A stretch of 35,870 nt of DNA from Propionibacteriaceae bacterium (GTDB lineage: Bacteria; Actinomycetota; Actinomycetes; Propionibacteriales; Propionibacteriaceae): positions 1 to 35,870 of the forward strand of contig WRFI01000004.1 in assembly GCA_009778875.1 (NCBI GenBank), given 5' to 3'. The notes beneath the pieces were generated by a model. That model saw only the letters and a program-made list of their open reading frames with translations. It did no database searches and was not told where the DNA came from. This document shows positions 3,023 to 34,552 of this stretch, one piece after another (the stretch's first letter is position 1; the number at the start of each line of letters is the position of its first letter). The position numbers and the translations under genes are program-made.

Positions 3023-3043
3023 CCTTAGACCTTAGACCTTGAG
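3023..3043. repeat. Three tandem 7-bp units at the end of the permease gene
   Basis: CCTTAGA, CCTTAGA and CCTTGAG follow one another directly. The permease stop codon lies inside the array and the third unit encodes its last residues. It may be a small slippage duplication; no function is implied. Confidence 0.5.
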
Positions 3044-4714
3044 ATTGTCACTGCCGCCCGGAAGCTTCATCAGCAGCGCGAGGGACAAGACCGTGATGGC
3101 AAGCAGGATGGTGGACAGGGCACCGGCAGTACCAAGCTGGTTTCGCACGACCGTGACGTAGATGCCGAGCGACATGGTCTGCGTCTTGGCGCTGTAGAGG
3201 AACAGCGTGGTGCTCAGTTCCGTGATGATGGTCACCCAGCTCAAAATGGCTCCCGAGAAGATGCCAGGAGCAAGCACAGGCACGATGACCTTGACCAGCG
3301 TTTTGAGCTTGGACGCCCCCAGTGACTGGGCGGCCTCTTCGATGCTGGGGCTCTGTTGGCCGAGTAACGCCGCGGTCGAGCGAATCGCGTACGGCATACG
3401 TCTGATCATTAAGGCGATCACCATGATGGTGGCGGTTCCCGTCAAGGCCAGCGGCTTGCCCGAGAAGGTCAGCATGAATGCGATACCGATGACCAGCCCC
3501 GGCACCACATAAGGCACCATGGTCAAAGCGTCCAAGGCCTTGTTGACGGGGTTGGGGCGACGCACCGAGATGTAGGCGACCAGCACCGCGATCACAACGA
3601 GCAGCACCAGCGCCGACAGCCCGATGGTGAACGTGTTCTTGACATACTTTTCGATGTCTTTGGAGGCCGACGTGTAGTTTGCCAGCGTGAAATGCAGGCC
3701 CGGGACGAACTGCCCCATGACCGTCTTGCGGAAGCTGGAAACGATCACCACCAACAGCGGCAGGAGCGACACCACCAAGTATGCGTACACAAGAACGTGG
3801 ACGAGAACCGCCGGGCCGGGGCGCAGCACCTTGGGCTGGATCGGCCGCATGGCGTTCATGGCGAATGAGTTGCGCGACGAAACGTAGCGTTGCACAAAGA
3901 AGATGGCCAACGTCAGCACAATGACGATGACGCTCAAAGCGGCGGCAAAGTTCATGTTCTGGCTGACTTCGCCGGTGGCGGCACCGTAAATCTGGTAGGG
4001 CATCGTTTGGTATCCCTTGCCGATCAGCATTGGGGTGCCAAAGTCCGCGAAGGCGCGGACGAACACCAGCAGGCTGCCCGCCAGGACGGTCGGCACCAGC
4101 AGTGGCGCCACCACCTTGAAGGCCCGCTTGGGGCCGTTGCAGCCCAGCGAGTCGGACGCTTCCAGGATTGACTCGTCGACGGTGCGCCAGGCTCCCATGA
4201 GATAGGTGAAGATCAGCGGCACAAGTTGCAGCGTGAGAACGACCAGGATTCCTGGCAACCCGTAGATGGACGGTATCGAGACGCCAAACAGTTTCTTGGC
4301 TCCCTGCGTGACAACGCCGTTGCTGCCCAGCAGCAGGATCCAGGAATAGGCGCCGATGAACGGCGGCGACATCATCGATGCCAGGACCAGTACCTGGATG
4401 GCGTTCTTGCCGCGCACCCGGAACATGGTCATGACATACGACAAAGGAAAGGCGACGACAAGCGCCAGCAGAGTGACACCAAAGCCGATGAAAAGGCTGT
4501 GCCCCAGCGCCGTCAGGTATGTCTTGGAGTGGAAGAACTGGCCGAACGAGGCCAGGGAGAAGCCTGCGCCGCCGCCTTGGAAGCTTTTTCGCAGCACCAT
4601 GAACATCGGGATGACGACGATCACGATGTAGAACAGCGAGATGAGGCCGGAGGCGCCCGTCCAGATGTCCGGTTTGACTAGCTTCAGGGTATTTCGGGGC
4701 GCAGTGCCACTCAT
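3032..4714 (-). CDS. ABC importer permease, two fused membrane domains (ferric-iron/FbpB-AfuB type)
   Basis: A 560-residue inner-membrane protein with about twelve hydrophobic segments made of two homologous BPD_transp_1 halves. Each half has an EAA coupling loop that contacts the ATPase: EASDSLGCNGPKR in the first and EEAAQSLGASKLK in the second. Double-length permeases of this form are typical of the Fe3+ (FbpB/AfuB) and related sulfate, thiosulfate or aminoethylphosphonate importers. The ATG at 4714 overlaps the stop of the ATPase gene (ATGA), indicating translational coupling. It is the last gene of a three-gene operon. The family and topology are clear; ferric iron as substrate is inferred from the family and the binding protein. 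Confidence 0.88.
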   Translation of the reverse strand: MSGTAPRNTLKLVKPDIWTGASGLISLFYIVIVVIPMFMVLRKSFQGGGAGFSLASFGQFFHSKTYLTALGHSLFIGFGVTLLALVVAFPLSYVMTMFRVRGKNAIQVLVLASMMSPPFIGAYSWILLLGSNGVVTQGAKKLFGVSIPSIYGLPGILVVLTLQLVPLIFTYLMGAWRTVDESILEASDSLGCNGPKRAFKVVAPLLVPTVLAGSLLVFVRAFADFGTPMLIGKGYQTMPYQIYGAATGEVSQNMNFAAALSVIVIVLTLAIFFVQRYVSSRNSFAMNAMRPIQPKVLRPGPAVLVHVLVYAYLVVSLLPLLVVIVSSFRKTVMGQFVPGLHFTLANYTSASKDIEKYVKNTFTIGLSALVLLVVIAVLVAYISVRRPNPVNKALDALTMVPYVVPGLVIGIAFMLTFSGKPLALTGTATIMVIALMIRRMPYAIRSTAALLGQQSPSIEEAAQSLGASKLKTLVKVIVPVLAPGIFSGAILSWVTIITELSTTLFLYSAKTQTMSLGIYVTVVRNQLGTAGALSTILLAITVLSLALLMKLPGGSDNLKV

Positions 4715-5829
4715 GGTTGACTCCGCATGACCGTGGAGCCGGTCTCCGGGTCGAAGTAGTTGAGCCTGCTTTGGTCAAAGGCCAGCTTGACCGGCTGGCC
4801 AGCCGTCCAGGAGTGCGATGCGCCGTGGCTGAACTCCAGGAACTCGACGACGTCCCCGCTGGACAGTTCCGCGCGCACCTGGTTGTGCGGCCCGAGGAAC
4901 GTCTGGTCGACGATCGTGGCGGCGGCGCCCTTGTCGGCCACGGCGAGGGCCTCAGGCCGGGCGGAGACGACCACTAAGTCGCCGGTGGCGGCCGTGTCGA
5001 CCTGATCGGTGATGTCCAACGTCAGCTCGGCGTCGAGGCTGACCAGCAGCCGGTCGTGTTCGCGCACGACGGGACGGGTGATCGGGTTCGTCTTTCCGAT
5101 GAAACCGGCCACGAACATGTTGGTTGGGCGGTGATAGATCTCGGGCGGGGTGCCGAGCTGCTGCACGATACCCTCGTTCATGACGGCGATGCGGTCGGAG
5201 ACCGACATGGCCTCCTCTTGGTCGTGGGTGACGTAGATGCAGGTGATGCCCGCCTGGTGCTGGATCTCGCGAATCGTTGTCCGCATCTCGACGCGCAGCT
5301 TGGCGTCGAGGTTGCTCAGCGGCTCGTCCATCAGAAGGACGGCCGGCTTGATGACGAGCGCCCGCGCCAGGGCGACCCGCTGCTGCTGCCCGCCGGACAT
5401 CATGCCAGGCATGCGGTCTCTCAACTGGTCCATGTGAACGGAATGGAGGGCCTCATCAACGCGCGGGCCGATGTCCGACTTGGGCACCTTGCGGTTCTCC
5501 AAGCCGAAAGCGACGTTTTTTGCCGCCGTCATCTGGGGGAACAGCGCGTAGTTCTGGAAGACCATGCCGATGTTGCGGGCCGCTGGGGCCAGGTCATTGA
5601 TGACCTCGCCGTTGAACGCGATGGTGCCTGCCTCGATCGAGTTGAAGCCGGCGATCATGCGCAACAGGGTGGTTTTGCCACACCCGGAGGGCCCGAGGAG
5701 GGTGAAGAACTCACCCTCCCGGACCTCCATGGAGAGGTCGGTGATCACGACGTGATCGCCGTACTCTTTGCGCAGGTGTTGCAGGCTGATGGCGGTGGCG
5801 CCACCCACTTGCTCTGCAGATTGTGACAT
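4711..5829 (-). CDS. ABC importer ATPase (FbpC/PotA-like, with TOBE domain)
   Basis: A 372-residue cytoplasmic ATPase that energises the adjacent permease. The N-terminal nucleotide-binding domain has Walker A (GPSGCGKTT), the Q-loop region (VFQNYALFPQ), the signature SGGQQQR, Walker B (LLMDEPLSNLD) and the switch histidine (VTHDQEE). The C-terminal ~120 residues match the regulatory TOBE region found in the ferric, polyamine and maltose-type importers. Its ATG at 5829-5827 shares one base with the TAA stop of the binding-protein gene (TAATG), and its TGA overlaps the permease ATG. The three genes are therefore tightly coupled. Confidence 0.9.
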   Translation of the reverse strand: MSQSAEQVGGATAISLQHLRKEYGDHVVITDLSMEVREGEFFTLLGPSGCGKTTLLRMIAGFNSIEAGTIAFNGEVINDLAPAARNIGMVFQNYALFPQMTAAKNVAFGLENRKVPKSDIGPRVDEALHSVHMDQLRDRMPGMMSGGQQQRVALARALVIKPAVLLMDEPLSNLDAKLRVEMRTTIREIQHQAGITCIYVTHDQEEAMSVSDRIAVMNEGIVQQLGTPPEIYHRPTNMFVAGFIGKTNPITRPVVREHDRLLVSLDAELTLDITDQVDTAATGDLVVVSARPEALAVADKGAAATIVDQTFLGPHNQVRAELSSGDVVEFLEFSHGASHSWTAGQPVKLAFDQSRLNYFDPETGSTVMRSQP

Positions 5830-6923
5830 TAGCTGACGTTGGCCAGAGCTGCCTGGTACTTCGAAAGGATCGTGTCGCGGTTGGCCGACACCCAGGTCGA
5901 GTCTTCTTGCAGCGTCTTGATGTCGCTCAACAGCGGGACGCCCTGCTTCACGATGCCCGGGCGCAGCGGACGGCCATTGGTCTGGTCGGCGATGATCTGC
6001 TGGGCTTGCTCAGACTGGATCCAGTCGCAGAAGGCTTGCGCCTGCGCCATGTTCTTGGCGCCCTTGATGATCTCGACACCGGACGGCAGGAAGACCGCAC
6101 CCTCGCTCGGATAGATGATCTTGACGGGCTGACCGGCCTGGACGAAGTTCGAGGCCAGCGGCTCATATGTCAAAGCCACGGTGTACTCGCCGTTGGCTGT
6201 GGACTGGCCGACCTCGTTGGACGAGCCGATGGCCTGGCCACCAGTTTGGTTCAGCAGGCTCTGCACGAACTGCCAGCCGGCGTCCGAGGTGTAGTTGGCG
6301 TCCATCGACGACTGGCCACCCATGGCGGCGAGCATGTTCGTCAACTGGGCGAACGCACTGGACGAGTTGGTCGGGTCACCGAAAGCAATCTTGCCCTTCA
6401 GCGCCGGGTTCAGCAGGTCCGCGTAGCCGTTGATCGTGATGTCACCGATCTTGTCGGTGTTGACCATGAGGACGGAACCGTCGGCCTGATACGGCGTGGA
6501 GAAGCCACCGACGTTCTTGCCGATGCCAGTCATGTCGCCATCATTGGCGCCGACGTATGGTTCCCATAGGTCCGAGTTGGACATGGCCTGGGCGACGCCG
6601 CCGCCGAACAGCACATCGCCTTGGGGATTGGCGACCTCATTCGTGATTCGGGTATAGAGTTCACCGGTTCCGGCAGTGACTGTGTTGACGGTGATGCCGG
6701 TGGCGTCGGTGAAGGCAGGCAGCAAGGCATCGAGCATGTTTTGCTCATTCGGCGTGTACATGGTGAGTGTGCCGCCGATCTTGGCCGGGGCGGTGGCGGA
6801 TGTGCCTGTGTCGCCTGTCGTGGGTGTGGTCCCTGCTGGACTCGACGTGCCACACGCGGTGGCGGTCAGTGCCAAAGCCAGAATCGGCAGTGCCACCAAG
6901 TAGCGAAGAGTGGGACGATGCAT
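5829..6923 (-). CDS. Extracellular substrate-binding lipoprotein of the ferric-iron-type ABC importer
   Basis: A 364-residue protein beginning at 6923, where a GGAGA ribosome-binding site lies 8-9 nt upstream; the longer frame upstream has no such support. The N-terminus is a lipoprotein signal (basic start, hydrophobic stretch, then LTATAC with the modifiable cysteine at C24), followed by a Gly/Thr/Pro-rich linker. The rest fits the bacterial binding-protein family that includes FbpA and AfuA (LTMYTPNEQ near the start of the mature domain, GKIAFGDPTNSSSA, LTYEP). As first gene of the operon it should capture the ligand at the cell surface and pass it to the permease. Ferric iron is the likeliest ligand, but phosphonates or other anions are used by relatives. 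Confidence 0.85.
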   Translation of the reverse strand: MHRPTLRYLVALPILALALTATACGTSSPAGTTPTTGDTGTSATAPAKIGGTLTMYTPNEQNMLDALLPAFTDATGITVNTVTAGTGELYTRITNEVANPQGDVLFGGGVAQAMSNSDLWEPYVGANDGDMTGIGKNVGGFSTPYQADGSVLMVNTDKIGDITINGYADLLNPALKGKIAFGDPTNSSSAFAQLTNMLAAMGGQSSMDANYTSDAGWQFVQSLLNQTGGQAIGSSNEVGQSTANGEYTVALTYEPLASNFVQAGQPVKIIYPSEGAVFLPSGVEIIKGAKNMAQAQAFCDWIQSEQAQQIIADQTNGRPLRPGIVKQGVPLLSDIKTLQEDSTWVSANRDTILSKYQAALANVS

Positions 6924-6985
6924 ATGGTTATCTCCTTCAATTTCAAGCCGCAGGCCAAACCCGCGGCAGTGTTGAACCTTTGTTA

Positions 6986-6997
6986 CATTCTCATTAT
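6986..6997 (-). promoter_or_regulatory. Fur-like half site and candidate -10 upstream of the iron-type operon
   Basis: On the minus strand the sequence ATAATGAGAATG lies 63-74 bp before the binding-protein start. It matches 10 of 11 bases of the first half of the classical Fur box (ATAATGATAAT), but the second half is not conserved. CATAAT (6998-6993) within it could be a -10 element. The 250-bp gap 6924-7173 otherwise holds only the secA leader. Confidence 0.25.
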
Positions 6998-7111
6998 GCC
7001 CGATGAGGTGAGACATTCCAGTCAGCCAGGGAGATGTGAAGTGCATGTCCGGCCAAGTTCCCGCCGATGACGCTGCGGAACGTCGCACAGGCCAAGCGGG
7101 GCGCCACCCGG

Positions 7112-7117
7112 TAAGAT
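7112..7117 (+). promoter_or_regulatory. secA: Candidate -10 element for secA
   Basis: TAAGAT lies 57-62 bp before the GTG start at 7174. It fits the TAnnnT pattern used in Actinomycetota; no clear -35 is present. A transcript starting near 7124 would begin at the hairpin described next. Confidence 0.3.
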
Positions 7118-7121
7118 GGAC

Positions 7122-7154
7122 GGCGCTGCCGCTTGTCGGAAGACCGACGGCGCC
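7122..7154 (+). other. Stem-loop in the secA leader
   Basis: GTCGG (7135-7139), loop AAGA and CCGAC (7144-7148) form a perfect inner stem. GGCGC (7122-7126) can pair with GCGCC (7150-7154) around it. No T-run follows, so it is not a terminator. It ends directly before the AGAAAGGA ribosome-binding site at 7156-7163 and could affect secA translation. Confidence 0.45.
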
Positions 7155-7173
7155 CAGAAAGGATGAGTGTGTT

Positions 7174-10073
<2,900 letters not shown>

Positions 10074-17540: not shown

Positions 17541-18779
17541 TCACAATGGACGCTTTGGCCAGCAGCAGTGTTTGGCCTTGCGACCGCTGCCGCATGGGCA
17601 GGGGTCATTTCGGCCAACACCTTGCCACTTTTCCGCCCGGGCAGTGCGCAGGGCGTCCATGATGGCGGGCGAGGCATATCCGTTGCTGGCCATCGCCACG
17701 ACGGTTCTCAACTCGGGCACGGCACGAGCGAAGAATGCCGTCAAGCCGTCACACAAGATGTTGATGCCGTTGCCGGGGCGATCCTTCGGGCAGCCGCCGT
17801 TGCACAGGGCCAGCCAGGGGCAGTCGCGGCACTTGTCCGGCAAATCGGCTTTGGCCTGCCCAAACGCCTGTTGGGCCGCCGAATCGGCGAGCGCCGCGAG
17901 GTTGCCCACGTCGCCCAGGCGGTACCTGGGACGGACGAAATGATCGCACGAGTAGACGCCGCCGTCGGCTTCGACCACCAGCGCTCGCCCGCAGGTGGGC
18001 GCCAGCCAGCACAGGCCGGGCGCCCCGCCGCCCAGGGTGTTGGCGGTCTCGGCGAACAGCTGCACCGCGGTGGTGCCAAGGTCGTGCAACGCCCACTCGT
18101 CGAAGACTTCGACGAGAAACCGTCCATAGGCCTCACCGGTGACCGATTCGGGTGTCAGGCCGGTGCCGTCCCTCACAACAATCGGAATGAACTCCATCCA
18201 ACCTGTGCCGAAAGCGCGCAGGTTGCGGTAAACCTCCAGCGGGTGGTCGGCCGCCGTTGACGTGACGGTGCACAGCAGGTCGGGTTGGACGCCGTGGGCT
18301 TGCAGCCGCCGGATCGCGCTGGCCGCCGCGTCATACGAGCCCCGCCCGCGGGGGTCCGGCCGGAACTTGTCGTGAATCCATTCGGTGCCGTCAATGCTGA
18401 GGCCGACATCGAAACGGTTGTCGGCCAGAAACTGGCACCACTGGTCGTCCAGCAGCACGCCGTTGGTCTGCAGGTTGTTCCAGGCCGTCCAACCCTTTGG
18501 CAGGTACCTGCCCTGCAACTCGACCACGCGGCGGTAGAAGTCCAACCCTGCCAGGGTCGGCTCACCGCCGTGCCAGACGAAGTTGATGTTGGTCTGGTCC
18601 GGTTGGAGGCCGACGCCCGCGGCAATGTAACCCGAGATGAACGCTTCGAGCACGGCATCGCTCATGCGGGGTGCCATGGTCGGGGTGGCCAGGTAGTAGC
18701 AGTAGGTGCAACGCAGGTTGCAGGTCGAGCCGACCGGCTTGGCCATCACCGAAAAGGGGTGGCGGGCGACGTCCTCCAC
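17541..18779 (-). CDS. Radical SAM/SPASM maturase of the anaerobic sulfatase-maturase family, with C-terminal SEC-C motif
   Basis: A 412-residue iron-sulfur enzyme. The radical SAM cluster is C20-x3-C24-x2-C27 (CNLRCTYC), followed by the GGEP segment (71-74) and LSIDG. Eight auxiliary-cluster cysteines are present as C257, C263, C278, C317, C320, C326, C330 and C343, with the spacing of anaerobic sulfatase-maturating enzymes, which convert an active-site Cys or Ser of a sulfatase to formylglycine. The last ~25 residues form a SEC-C metal-binding motif (C394, C396, H404, C405) nearly the same as the SecA tail. The GTG at 18779 follows the hydrolase stop by 6 nt; ATG 18746 is an alternative start. 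No sulfatase gene is in the window, so the true substrate is open. Confidence 0.88.
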   Translation of the reverse strand: MEDVARHPFSVMAKPVGSTCNLRCTYCYYLATPTMAPRMSDAVLEAFISGYIAAGVGLQPDQTNINFVWHGGEPTLAGLDFYRRVVELQGRYLPKGWTAWNNLQTNGVLLDDQWCQFLADNRFDVGLSIDGTEWIHDKFRPDPRGRGSYDAAASAIRRLQAHGVQPDLLCTVTSTAADHPLEVYRNLRAFGTGWMEFIPIVVRDGTGLTPESVTGEAYGRFLVEVFDEWALHDLGTTAVQLFAETANTLGGGAPGLCWLAPTCGRALVVEADGGVYSCDHFVRPRYRLGDVGNLAALADSAAQQAFGQAKADLPDKCRDCPWLALCNGGCPKDRPGNGINILCDGLTAFFARAVPELRTVVAMASNGYASPAIMDALRTARAEKWQGVGRNDPCPCGSGRKAKHCCWPKRPL

Positions 18780-31907: not shown

Positions 31908-32975
31908 TTACAGGGCTGTGTCGGCCGCGTAATCTTGGACGGTTCGCCGAATCGTGGCCGACCCGAGCACGGTCGATCCGTCGTAGAAAGCCGCCGTTTG
32001 CCCTGGCGCCACGCCGACGATCGGGGTGTGCAAGATGACCTCAACCGTGCCGTCGGCCTGCGGCGTGACGAGGCCGGCCTGCGGGGCGGCGTGGGCCCGC
32101 ACCTGGACCAGTGCCTCCAGCGGCCCAGGGGGTTGGGCACCGGACGTCCAGGTGGCCGGCCCGCCAATCAGGCCCGTCACCAAAAGATGCGCCCGGGGGC
32201 CGACGATGACGCGCCGCTGGTCGGCGTCAAGCCCGATGACGAAGCGGGGCTCACGCCCGGGCGCTGGCGTCTTGATGTTCAGGCCCTTGCGCTGGCCAAC
32301 GGTGAAGCGGTAGGTGCCGCTGTGGCTGCCCAGCGGGGTGCCCGCCTCGTCGACGATGACGCCGGGACGCTCGCGCAGGCGCTCACTCAGCCAGGCGGTG
32401 GTGTCGCCGTCCGGGATGAAGCACAAGTCCATCGACTCCGATTTGGCCGCCACCGGCAGACCACGGGCACTGGCTTCGGCGCGCACGTCGTCCTTGGTCG
32501 AAGCGCCAAGCGGCAGCCAGACGTGCCGTAACTGGGCCTGTGTCAACACGCTCAGCACATAGCTCTGGTCCTTGGCCGAGTCGACGGCCCGGCTCAGCTC
32601 GGCCAGGCCGCCGGACCGCGCCAGGCGGGCGTAGTGGCCGGTGGCGAGGCCGTCGAAACCGCGGGCCAGCGCCTTGTCGAGCAGGGCGCCGAACTTGATC
32701 GTCCGATTGCACACGAGGCAGGGGTTGGGGGTTCGTCCGGCCGCATACTCGCCTGCGAAATTGCCCAACACCTGGATCTGGAAGGCGTCTCGCAGGTCCC
32801 ACACCTCGAAGGGCAGGGCCAGCGCGTCGGCCACCCGTCGGGCGTCCTCGGCGGCCGGCTCCGCGCCGTCCCGCAGCCTCAAGTGGACGGCGGTGACTTC
32901 GTTCCCGTCAGCGCACAGCCGGGCCGCGGTGACGGCCGAATCAACGCCACCGGAGACTGCCGCAACTAGCTTCAT
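31908..32975 (-). CDS. mnmA: tRNA-specific 2-thiouridylase
   Basis: A 355-residue cytoplasmic enzyme that thiolates uridine 34 of tRNAs for Glu, Gln and Lys. It has the PP-loop SGGVDSAV (residues 8-15), GRTPNPCLVCN with catalytic C89, ATGHYAR, the KDQSYVL strand, and LCFIPDG with the persulfide cysteine C185, followed by the C-terminal barrel with TVGQRKGL. There is no Shine-Dalgarno; TATCGT ends 8 nt before the ATG, suggesting a leaderless mRNA. It is divergent from hemH with only 16 bp between the start codons. Confidence 0.95.
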   Translation of the reverse strand: MKLVAAVSGGVDSAVTAARLCADGNEVTAVHLRLRDGAEPAAEDARRVADALALPFEVWDLRDAFQIQVLGNFAGEYAAGRTPNPCLVCNRTIKFGALLDKALARGFDGLATGHYARLARSGGLAELSRAVDSAKDQSYVLSVLTQAQLRHVWLPLGASTKDDVRAEASARGLPVAAKSESMDLCFIPDGDTTAWLSERLRERPGVIVDEAGTPLGSHSGTYRFTVGQRKGLNIKTPAPGREPRFVIGLDADQRRVIVGPRAHLLVTGLIGGPATWTSGAQPPGPLEALVQVRAHAAPQAGLVTPQADGTVEVILHTPIVGVAPGQTAAFYDGSTVLGSATIRRTVQDYAADTAL

Positions 32976-32991: not shown

Positions 32992-33984
32992 ATGACTGCC
33001 GTGAAACCGAACCGCGCCGTGGTGCTGGCCAACTTGGGCACGCCCGACTCGCCAGCCCTGGCCGATGTCCGCGCCTACTTGCGCCAGTTTCTGTCTGACA
33101 AGCGCATCGTCGCCGCGCCGCGGGCCTTTTGGGTACCGTTCTTGCACCTCATCCTGCTGCGCTTCTACGCGCCAAAATCGGCCGCCCGGTACGAGTCAAT
33201 CTGGACCGCGGACGGATCGCCTCAGCGCGTCAACACCCAGCGCCAGGCGGACGACCTGCAGTCCCGTCTGGGGGCGGGCTGGACGGTGCGCTACGCCATG
33301 CGGTACGGCACGCCGTCCATTGACGAGACCTTGACCGCTTTGCGTGAGGACGGGGTGACGCAGGTGTTGATGCTGTCGCTGTTTCCGCAGTTCTCAACCA
33401 CCACGACCGCCAGCCTGCAGGACGACCTCAACCTCTACTTGAAGGTACGCCCGTCGACCTTGGAGTCTCCGCTGGACATCACCTGGGCCGACCGTTGGGG
33501 CGACGATCCGCCTTACATCGCCGCCTGCGTCGCCCGCATTGAAGACGCCTGGCAAACAAGCGGACGCCCCGACTTCGACCGGGGCGACAAGCTGGTGTTG
33601 AGCTTCCACGGCGTGCCGCTCAGCTGTGCTGACGCCCGCGACTACCAGGGCGAGTGCCAGCGCACCGCCGACCTGGTGCTGGAGGGTCTCGGATTGACGG
33701 GCAACCAGGGGCTGGTCACATTCCAGTCAAAGTTCGGCCCAGGTCAGTGGCTGACGCCGGCGACGATTGCGACCATGCGCGAGCTTGGCCCGCGCACCGC
33801 CCGGGTGGACGTTTTCTGCCCCGGTTTCGCCGCCGACTGTCTGGAAACCATCGAGGAGATCGGCCAGCTCAACCGGGCGGCCTTTCTTGGCGCCGGGGGC
33901 CAGGAGTTCAACCGGATCGACTGCCTGAACCAGCATCCGGCGTTCATCGATGGATTGCTAAGCTTGAGCCATGCCAAAAGATAA
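32992..33984 (+). CDS. hemH: Ferrochelatase, enterobacterial (protoporphyrin) type
   Basis: A 330-residue enzyme inserting ferrous iron into a porphyrin. H206 (SFHGVP) is the conserved catalytic histidine and E285/E288 lie in CPGFAADCLETIEEI (276-290). Stretches such as LANLGTPDSP, YLRQFLSDKR, TFQSKFG and NRAAFLGAGG match E. coli HemH as I remember it, rather than the YQSxPxS pattern of Gram-positive coproporphyrin ferrochelatases. Together with hemG this points to protoporphyrin IX as substrate. ATG 32992 is the chosen start; GTG 33001, 9 nt after GATAAC, is a possible leaderless alternative. Its end overlaps hemG by 14 nt. Confidence 0.92.
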   Translation: MTAVKPNRAVVLANLGTPDSPALADVRAYLRQFLSDKRIVAAPRAFWVPFLHLILLRFYAPKSAARYESIWTADGSPQRVNTQRQADDLQSRLGAGWTVRYAMRYGTPSIDETLTALREDGVTQVLMLSLFPQFSTTTTASLQDDLNLYLKVRPSTLESPLDITWADRWGDDPPYIAACVARIEDAWQTSGRPDFDRGDKLVLSFHGVPLSCADARDYQGECQRTADLVLEGLGLTGNQGLVTFQSKFGPGQWLTPATIATMRELGPRTARVDVFCPGFAADCLETIEEIGQLNRAAFLGAGGQEFNRIDCLNQHPAFIDGLLSLSHAKR

Positions 33985-34552
33985 GCCATGTGTGCTCGTC
34001 ATCCACTCCAGCCGGTTCGGCCAGTCCACCAAGATCGCTCAAGCCATCGTTGATGAGATGGCGGCCTGCGGCGTTGACTCTGACCTGCAAGCCCTTTCCG
34101 TCACCACGGCACCGGACCCGCAACGCCACGATGCCGTCGCGTTGGTCATCTCGGTGCGTTACGGTCACTTCGACGCGAACGCCGCCAAGTTCCTCGCCGC
34201 TCATCGGGCGTGGCTTGACGCCCACCCGAGCCTGCTCGTCACCGTCTCGTTGACGGCCCGCACGGAAGCCAAGCGCGACCCGGCCGTGCACAGCTACACG
34301 AAGAAGTTCTTGGAGGAAACCACCTGGGTGCCGACCCACACCGAAGTCGTGGCCGGCATGTTGGACTACCCGAGCTACAAGATTTGGGATCGCCTCGCCA
34401 TCCAGTTGATCATGACCATGACGAAAGGCCCGACCGACCCGAAGACGGTCATCGAGTACACCGATTGGGATCGGGTGAAGGAATTGGCCGACGAGTTCGC
34501 TAAACTTGTCAAAGATGCGCCCGGGGTCAGTGAAAATCTGAACCGGCGGTAA
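33971..34552 (+). CDS. hemG: Menaquinone-dependent protoporphyrinogen IX dehydrogenase, flavodoxin-like
   Basis: A 193-residue flavodoxin-fold FMN enzyme that oxidises protoporphyrinogen IX to protoporphyrin IX, passing electrons to menaquinone. The phosphate loop is SSRFGQST (13-20). The HemG-specific insertion is present (SLTARTEAKRDPAVHSYTKKFL; landmarks TAR and KRDP), followed by VVAGMLDYPSYKIWDR and LIMTMTKGPTDP, then YTDWDRV; all have close counterparts in E. coli HemG as I recall it. HemG is mainly known from gammaproteobacteria; Actinomycetota normally use HemY. It overlaps hemH by 14 nt. Its last 13 codons also encode the 5' part of an FMN aptamer. Confidence 0.9.
   Translation: MPKDKPCVLVIHSSRFGQSTKIAQAIVDEMAACGVDSDLQALSVTTAPDPQRHDAVALVISVRYGHFDANAAKFLAAHRAWLDAHPSLLVTVSLTARTEAKRDPAVHSYTKKFLEETTWVPTHTEVVAGMLDYPSYKIWDRLAIQLIMTMTKGPTDPKTVIEYTDWDRVKELADEFAKLVKDAPGVSENLNRR
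34501..34506 (+). promoter_or_regulatory. Candidate -10 element for the FMN-riboswitch transcript, inside hemG
   Basis: TAAACT (TAAACTTG extended) lies within hemG. A start 7-8 nt downstream falls on 34513-34514, which is precisely the first base of the aptamer P1 stem. A riboflavin-transport transcript separate from hemH-hemG is therefore likely. Confidence 0.45.

Follow-up and report, generated by a model that had tools for sequence, protein, structure and literature searches.

A proteobacterial-type hemH-hemG pair as the probable ending of an oxygen-independent heme pathway in a Propionibacteriaceae bacterium

The DNA examined, referred to here as the window, is a stretch of 35,870 nucleotides from a Propionibacteriaceae bacterium. 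It carries the genes hemH and hemG, which are listed in Table 1 with the other features discussed below. An earlier note on this DNA, made from the letters alone, had placed the two genes in an overlapping pair; this was confirmed by the coordinates, and the overlap was also found in L088, a sister MAG obtained from Embiratermes. The starts of hemH and the divergent mnmA are opposed with 16 nt between them, and beyond mnmA lie the genes for aconitase and then isocitrate dehydrogenase. The gene order aconitase, mnmA, hemH, hemG was kept in the sister MAG. No other member of the clade was found with adjacent hemG and hemH, and the overlapping pair was seen in the window species and its sister only. 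hemH and hemG are probably co-transcribed. Differences in the pair between the window species and the sister MAG were mostly silent, giving dN/dS values of ∼0.06 for hemG (0.028/0.46) and ∼0.12 for hemH (0.087/0.75). Values well below 1 indicate purifying selection, and the pair is therefore not a product of chance or decay. The GC and GC3 contents of hemH (0.65 and 0.84) and hemG (0.61 and 0.80) resembled those of their neighbours, as exemplified by the aconitase gene (0.67 and 0.86).

Table 1. Coordinates of the heme genes and their neighbour in the window, and of ECF transporter genes adjoining hemG in other loci (L numbers).
Feature	Position	Strand	Remarks
hemH, protoporphyrin-type ferrochelatase (PpfC-like)	32992..33984	+	ATG 32992, stop ends 33984, 330 aa
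hemG, menaquinone-dependent protoporphyrinogen IX dehydrogenase (predicted)	33971..34552	+	ATG 33971, stop ends 34552, 193 aa
hemH/hemG overlap, 14 nt	33971..33984	+	Read from sequence; identical overlap in sister MAG L088
mnmA, divergent neighbour (context)	31908..32975	-	NF001138, 359.8 bits
ECF transporter by hemG	L098:7119-10717	-	HemN-negative genome; S component by similarity to that of L101
ECF transporter by hemG	L099:6974-9808	-	HemN-negative genome
ECF transporter by hemG	L100:7710-10835	-	HemN-negative genome
ECF transporter by hemG	L101:889-3934	-	HemN-negative genome
ECF transporter by hemG	L102:6714-9582	-	HemN-negative genome
ECF transporter by hemG	L103:2387-5433	-	HemN-negative genome

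Elsewhere in the window, the reverse strand encodes a leucine-rich repeat protein with internalin-like repeats (487-2973; GC3 0.65, below its neighbours), an ABC transporter set resembling those for 2-aminoethylphosphonate uptake (3032-7223; PhnS2/T2/U2-like, below cut-offs) and an anaerobic sulfatase maturase (17541-18779; TIGR03942, over cut-off).

The window HemH matched TIGR00109 at 255 bits (cut-off 124.6) and PF00762 at 307 bits. The Gram-negative pattern attributed to it previously was present in all three motifs (FQSKFG, CPGFAADCLETIEEI and FLGAGG), as were the catalytic His 206 and the Glu of CLETIEEI. At the proximal position the protein has the Leu (NLGTP) of the E. coli enzyme, whereas the CpfC sequences of the order have Phe (SFGGP), the proximal residue of actinobacterial CpfC (PMC10427985). 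Identity was 38-43% to the enzymes of E. coli, Comamonas and Azoarcus, and 21-24% to CpfCs. In a tree of limited sampling and weak backbone, seven CpfCs of the host's own order split off at 100/100, and the window HemH joined the HemHs of termite-gut actinobacteria, amid proteobacterial-type enzymes; it did not group with the actinobacterial coproporphyrin ferrochelatases, as the earlier note had anticipated. Family, tree position and proximal residue suggest that the window HemH is a protoporphyrin-type ferrochelatase, with the corresponding catalysis predicted.

HemG scored 167.7 bits against NF008316 (curated cut-off 142) and 121 bits against PF12724. Both the HemG-specific loop and the YTDW end previously reported for this protein were detected, the loop carrying Y133, Y136 and R141 with the same spacing as Y134, Y137 and R142 of Leishmania major HemG. 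Loop residues have been tested in the Leishmania enzyme, and Y137 is essential (PMC4114063). A profile search of the PDB yielded no HemG, with flavodoxins and quinone reductases matching weakly. Menaquinone is the likely electron acceptor, judging by the HemG family and by MenB, which was found in the sister MAG G002 and not in the incomplete genome of the window.

The MAG that represents the window genome (G000) comprises 283 contigs totalling 2.18 Mb and is 76.5% complete. That the host is an actinobacterium agrees with the closest named HemG loci, which belong to MAGs of Propionibacteriaceae recovered from higher termites, Embiratermes and Nasutitermes among them, with several of these MAGs originating from a study of 589 termite-gut MAGs (PMC7024585). 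A search of this genome for hemQ, hemY and a second ferrochelatase had been proposed; profile searches detected no HemQ, HemY matches were below cut-off (best E 1.8e-6) and the ferrochelatase of the window was the only one found. HemF was also not found in G000. HemN was found on contig C107 (C107:3539-4966; 565 bits, cut-off 325), encoded directly downstream of hemA, with a hemL start facing away at the contig end. HemL (C202), HemB, HemC and HemE (C99), and HemA (C107) were recovered with a query of concatenated E. coli proteins that covered these five enzymes, CydA and MenB. HemW was located on C54, and CydA of cytochrome bd, a heme user, was present in two pieces. Owing to the incompleteness of this MAG each single absence is weak, and the weight lies on agreement among the relatives, including G026 (98% complete) and G029 (97%).

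HemG was over cut-off in six of 57 genomes in the survey of relatives, namely four of the window genus (G000-G003), G026 and G029. HemQ was found in none of these six and in 44 of the 51 HemG-negative genomes (hypergeometric ∼5e-5, kinship ignored), and HemY was over cut-off in none of the six compared with 41 of the 51. HemN was over cut-off in three genomes, all HemG-positive. Ferrochelatase scores were 302-346 bits in the HemG-positive genomes with a match and for the additional copy in G021, and did not exceed 282 in the rest; no ferrochelatase match was found in the HemG-positive G001. Among 30 genomes reached via named HemG loci, from actinobacteria and Gram-negatives, 29 had a ferrochelatase and none had HemQ, kinship among the genomes lowering the independence of all these counts.

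One relative, G021, has HemQ, HemY and CpfC plus a second, proteobacterial-type ferrochelatase (G021:C1:169550-191891; L244, L245), with no HemG over cut-off. Two nearly complete genomes (G017 and G030) have HemY and a ferrochelatase and no HemQ; in these genomes the coproheme decarboxylase is either absent or of a different type. The smaller genus mates G004, G005 and G006 were without HemG over cut-off, HemH, HemQ and the upstream heme genes; G005 and G006 keep CydA and so probably take up heme.

These data suggest, with a probability that we put at about 0.88, that hemH and hemG provide the two final steps of an oxygen-independent, protoporphyrin-dependent pathway that is complete and has taken the place of the coproporphyrin-dependent ending, the usual one in Actinomycetota. 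What was observed directly is the gene content, the families of the two enzymes and their position in the trees, the purifying selection on their genes and the failure to find the coproporphyrin-route enzymes. HemN, encoded elsewhere behind hemA, would make protoporphyrinogen IX, from which HemG would take six electrons and hand them to menaquinone, and HemH would then insert iron to give protoheme; catalysis by HemG and HemH in this organism is predicted from their sequences. The earlier suggestion of a replacement by a proteobacterial-type, anaerobic ending is supported, with the oxygen-independent HemN completing the route.

In a HemG tree of limited sampling, constructed from the best 80 HemG loci, the window HemG fell within a single clade (100/99) of 17 actinobacteria and two termite-gut Azoarcus, and the nearest rows outside this clade were Comamonadaceae (Comamonas and Paracidovorax; 98/89). 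The label 'enterobacterial-type' used in the earlier note thus stood in its proteobacterial part and not in its enterobacterial part: the ending appears to be proteobacterial-type without being specifically enterobacterial. A second HemG clade comprised Actinomyces, Propionibacterium sp. and G029 (100/100). For groups chosen after the tree was seen, the AU test rejected a single clade for all actinobacterial HemG (p 0.002) and a grouping of Azoarcus with Comamonadaceae (p 0.003), and did not reject the termite actinobacterial HemGs as a group without Azoarcus (p 0.28). HemG appears to have been acquired at least twice in actinobacteria. The HemH of G029 was placed with Lysobacterales (98/96) and its HemN with gammaproteobacteria (100/99); as these two also differ, G029 looks like a separate gain. 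Horizontal gain of the ending from Proteobacteria is the probable origin suggested by these sequences; the termite-gut HemN clade was not nested in the sampled Proteobacteria (83/88).

The HemGs of the Azoarcus MAGs (L104:7716-8240 and L105:6977-7510) grouped with those of termite actinobacteria and not with those of other proteobacteria, and on L104 hemG lies beside an acetyl-CoA hydrolase/transferase gene. The Azoarcus contigs carry apparently ordinary chromosomal genes together with the CoA-transferase gene, which makes misbinning unlikely. That Azoarcus and actinobacteria of termites have this HemG in common indicates an exchange of genes within the gut.

Some gut relatives appear to have a shorter version of the pathway. 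Matches to HemG, HemH, CydA and MenB were obtained in G026, Actinomyces provencensis (G077) and the Bifidobacteriaceae MAG G068, and none to HemB, HemC, HemE or HemA, with no HemN over cut-off; their matches in the HemL range were weak enough to represent other aminotransferases. An alternative coproporphyrinogen oxidase in the HemN-negative genomes was considered and dropped for those tested, since the upstream genes were missing too. An ECF S-T-A transporter adjoins hemG in six HemN-negative gut actinobacterial genomes (Table 1), and in five of the six loci, L098 being the exception, the S component was over cut-off for Trep_Strep PF09605 and TIGR02185 (MptD family). The linkage is not universal, as no ECF S or T gene was found near hemG in three further HemN-negative loci (L095, L096 and L097). 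In G026 the genes flanking hemG and hemH, which encode malate synthase, a glycosidase, an MFS protein, a rhomboid protein and citrate synthase, included no porphyrin importer. Among the HemN-bearing loci of the termite clade (the window, L088, L090, L092, L093 and L094), some on contigs short enough to limit the check, no ECF S or T gene was found near hemG.

It is an even bet, in our estimation, that in gut actinobacteria lacking the upstream genes the hemG-linked ECF transporter imports protoporphyrinogen or protoporphyrin IX, which HemG oxidizes and into which HemH adds iron. The transporter is a candidate importer, and its substrate may be a porphyrin or porphyrinogen. If this is correct, an ECF family whose annotation is only putative would gain a substrate, and cross-feeding of heme precursors in termite guts would become testable. 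In the window organism the same borrowed ending would stand on a complete pathway.

These relatives raise the question of whether the window pair also finishes protoporphyrinogen or protoporphyrin obtained from other gut microbes in place of the organism's own product. G026, G077 and G068, with HemG and HemH and without the earlier enzymes, and the transporters beside hemG are precedents for such salvage; however, the window genome has HemA, HemL, HemB, HemC, HemE and HemN and shows no ECF S or T gene in the vicinity of hemG, and for this organism the salvage reading is disfavoured and considered very improbable. Even less probable is that the pair was added for anoxic growth to an intact coproporphyrin route that is lost from the assembly. 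The MAG is incomplete and G021 does have a protoporphyrin-type HemH alongside CpfC, HemY and HemQ, but neither the four HemG-positive members of the genus nor the other HemG-positive genomes tested yielded a HemQ. That a contaminating proteobacterial contig was binned into an actinobacterial MAG, as the sequence type of the pair might suggest, is scarcely credible in view of the aconitase-mnmA-hemH-hemG synteny shared with another, independent MAG of the genus, the GC and GC3 match with the neighbouring genes and the occurrence of related HemGs in a clade of 17 actinobacterial MAGs, some of them nearly complete.

The favoured reading, an exchanged ending on a complete pathway, is best compared with HemN-HemG-HemH of E. 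coli, in which the same three families act in the same reaction order and are usable without oxygen, as predicted for the window organism. The window set differs in residing in an actinobacterium, in that no HemF was found and in the overlap of hemH and hemG in one unit; its HemG and HemH are 35% and 39% identical to those of E. coli. The coproporphyrin pathway of Actinomycetota and Bacillota (CgoX/HemY, CpfC and ChdC/HemQ) has the upstream part to coproporphyrinogen III in common with the protoporphyrin route. Its ending was found in most of the relatives, and none of its three distinctive enzymes was found in G000; one survey, as quoted in PMC10740692, places this route in 82% of Actinobacteria. 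HemQ needs peroxide and HemY oxygen (PMC10965808), and an exchanged ending with no oxygen-dependent step therefore fits an oxygen-limited gut.

A laterally gained ending that includes HemG is also known from Leishmania (Leishmaniinae), in which the late heme genes HemF-HemG-HemH were gained from bacteria (PMC4870792) and HemG activity has been shown (PMC4114063). Most upstream enzymes are missing there, as in the salvage relatives; Leishmania differs in being a eukaryote and in using HemF. For the ECF genes beside hemG, which are a candidate porphyrin importer, a comparable system is LhaSTA, an ECF heme importer of Staphylococcus lugdunensis (PMC7299338). Both would be ECF transporters for a tetrapyrrole, a likeness at the level of predicted function. 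LhaSTA brings in heme as an iron source, whereas the position of the ECF genes next to hemG suggests that their substrate may be an iron-free porphyrin. HemG and HemH themselves are ordinary members of known families; what is new is the wholesale exchange of the coproporphyrin ending in an actinobacterial clade, together with the linked candidate importer, and no report of such an exchange in termite actinobacteria was found in the literature searched, the coverage of which was partial. With the full pathway, an apparent two-enzyme salvage and complete loss all represented within one clade, the stepwise loss of heme synthesis becomes traceable.
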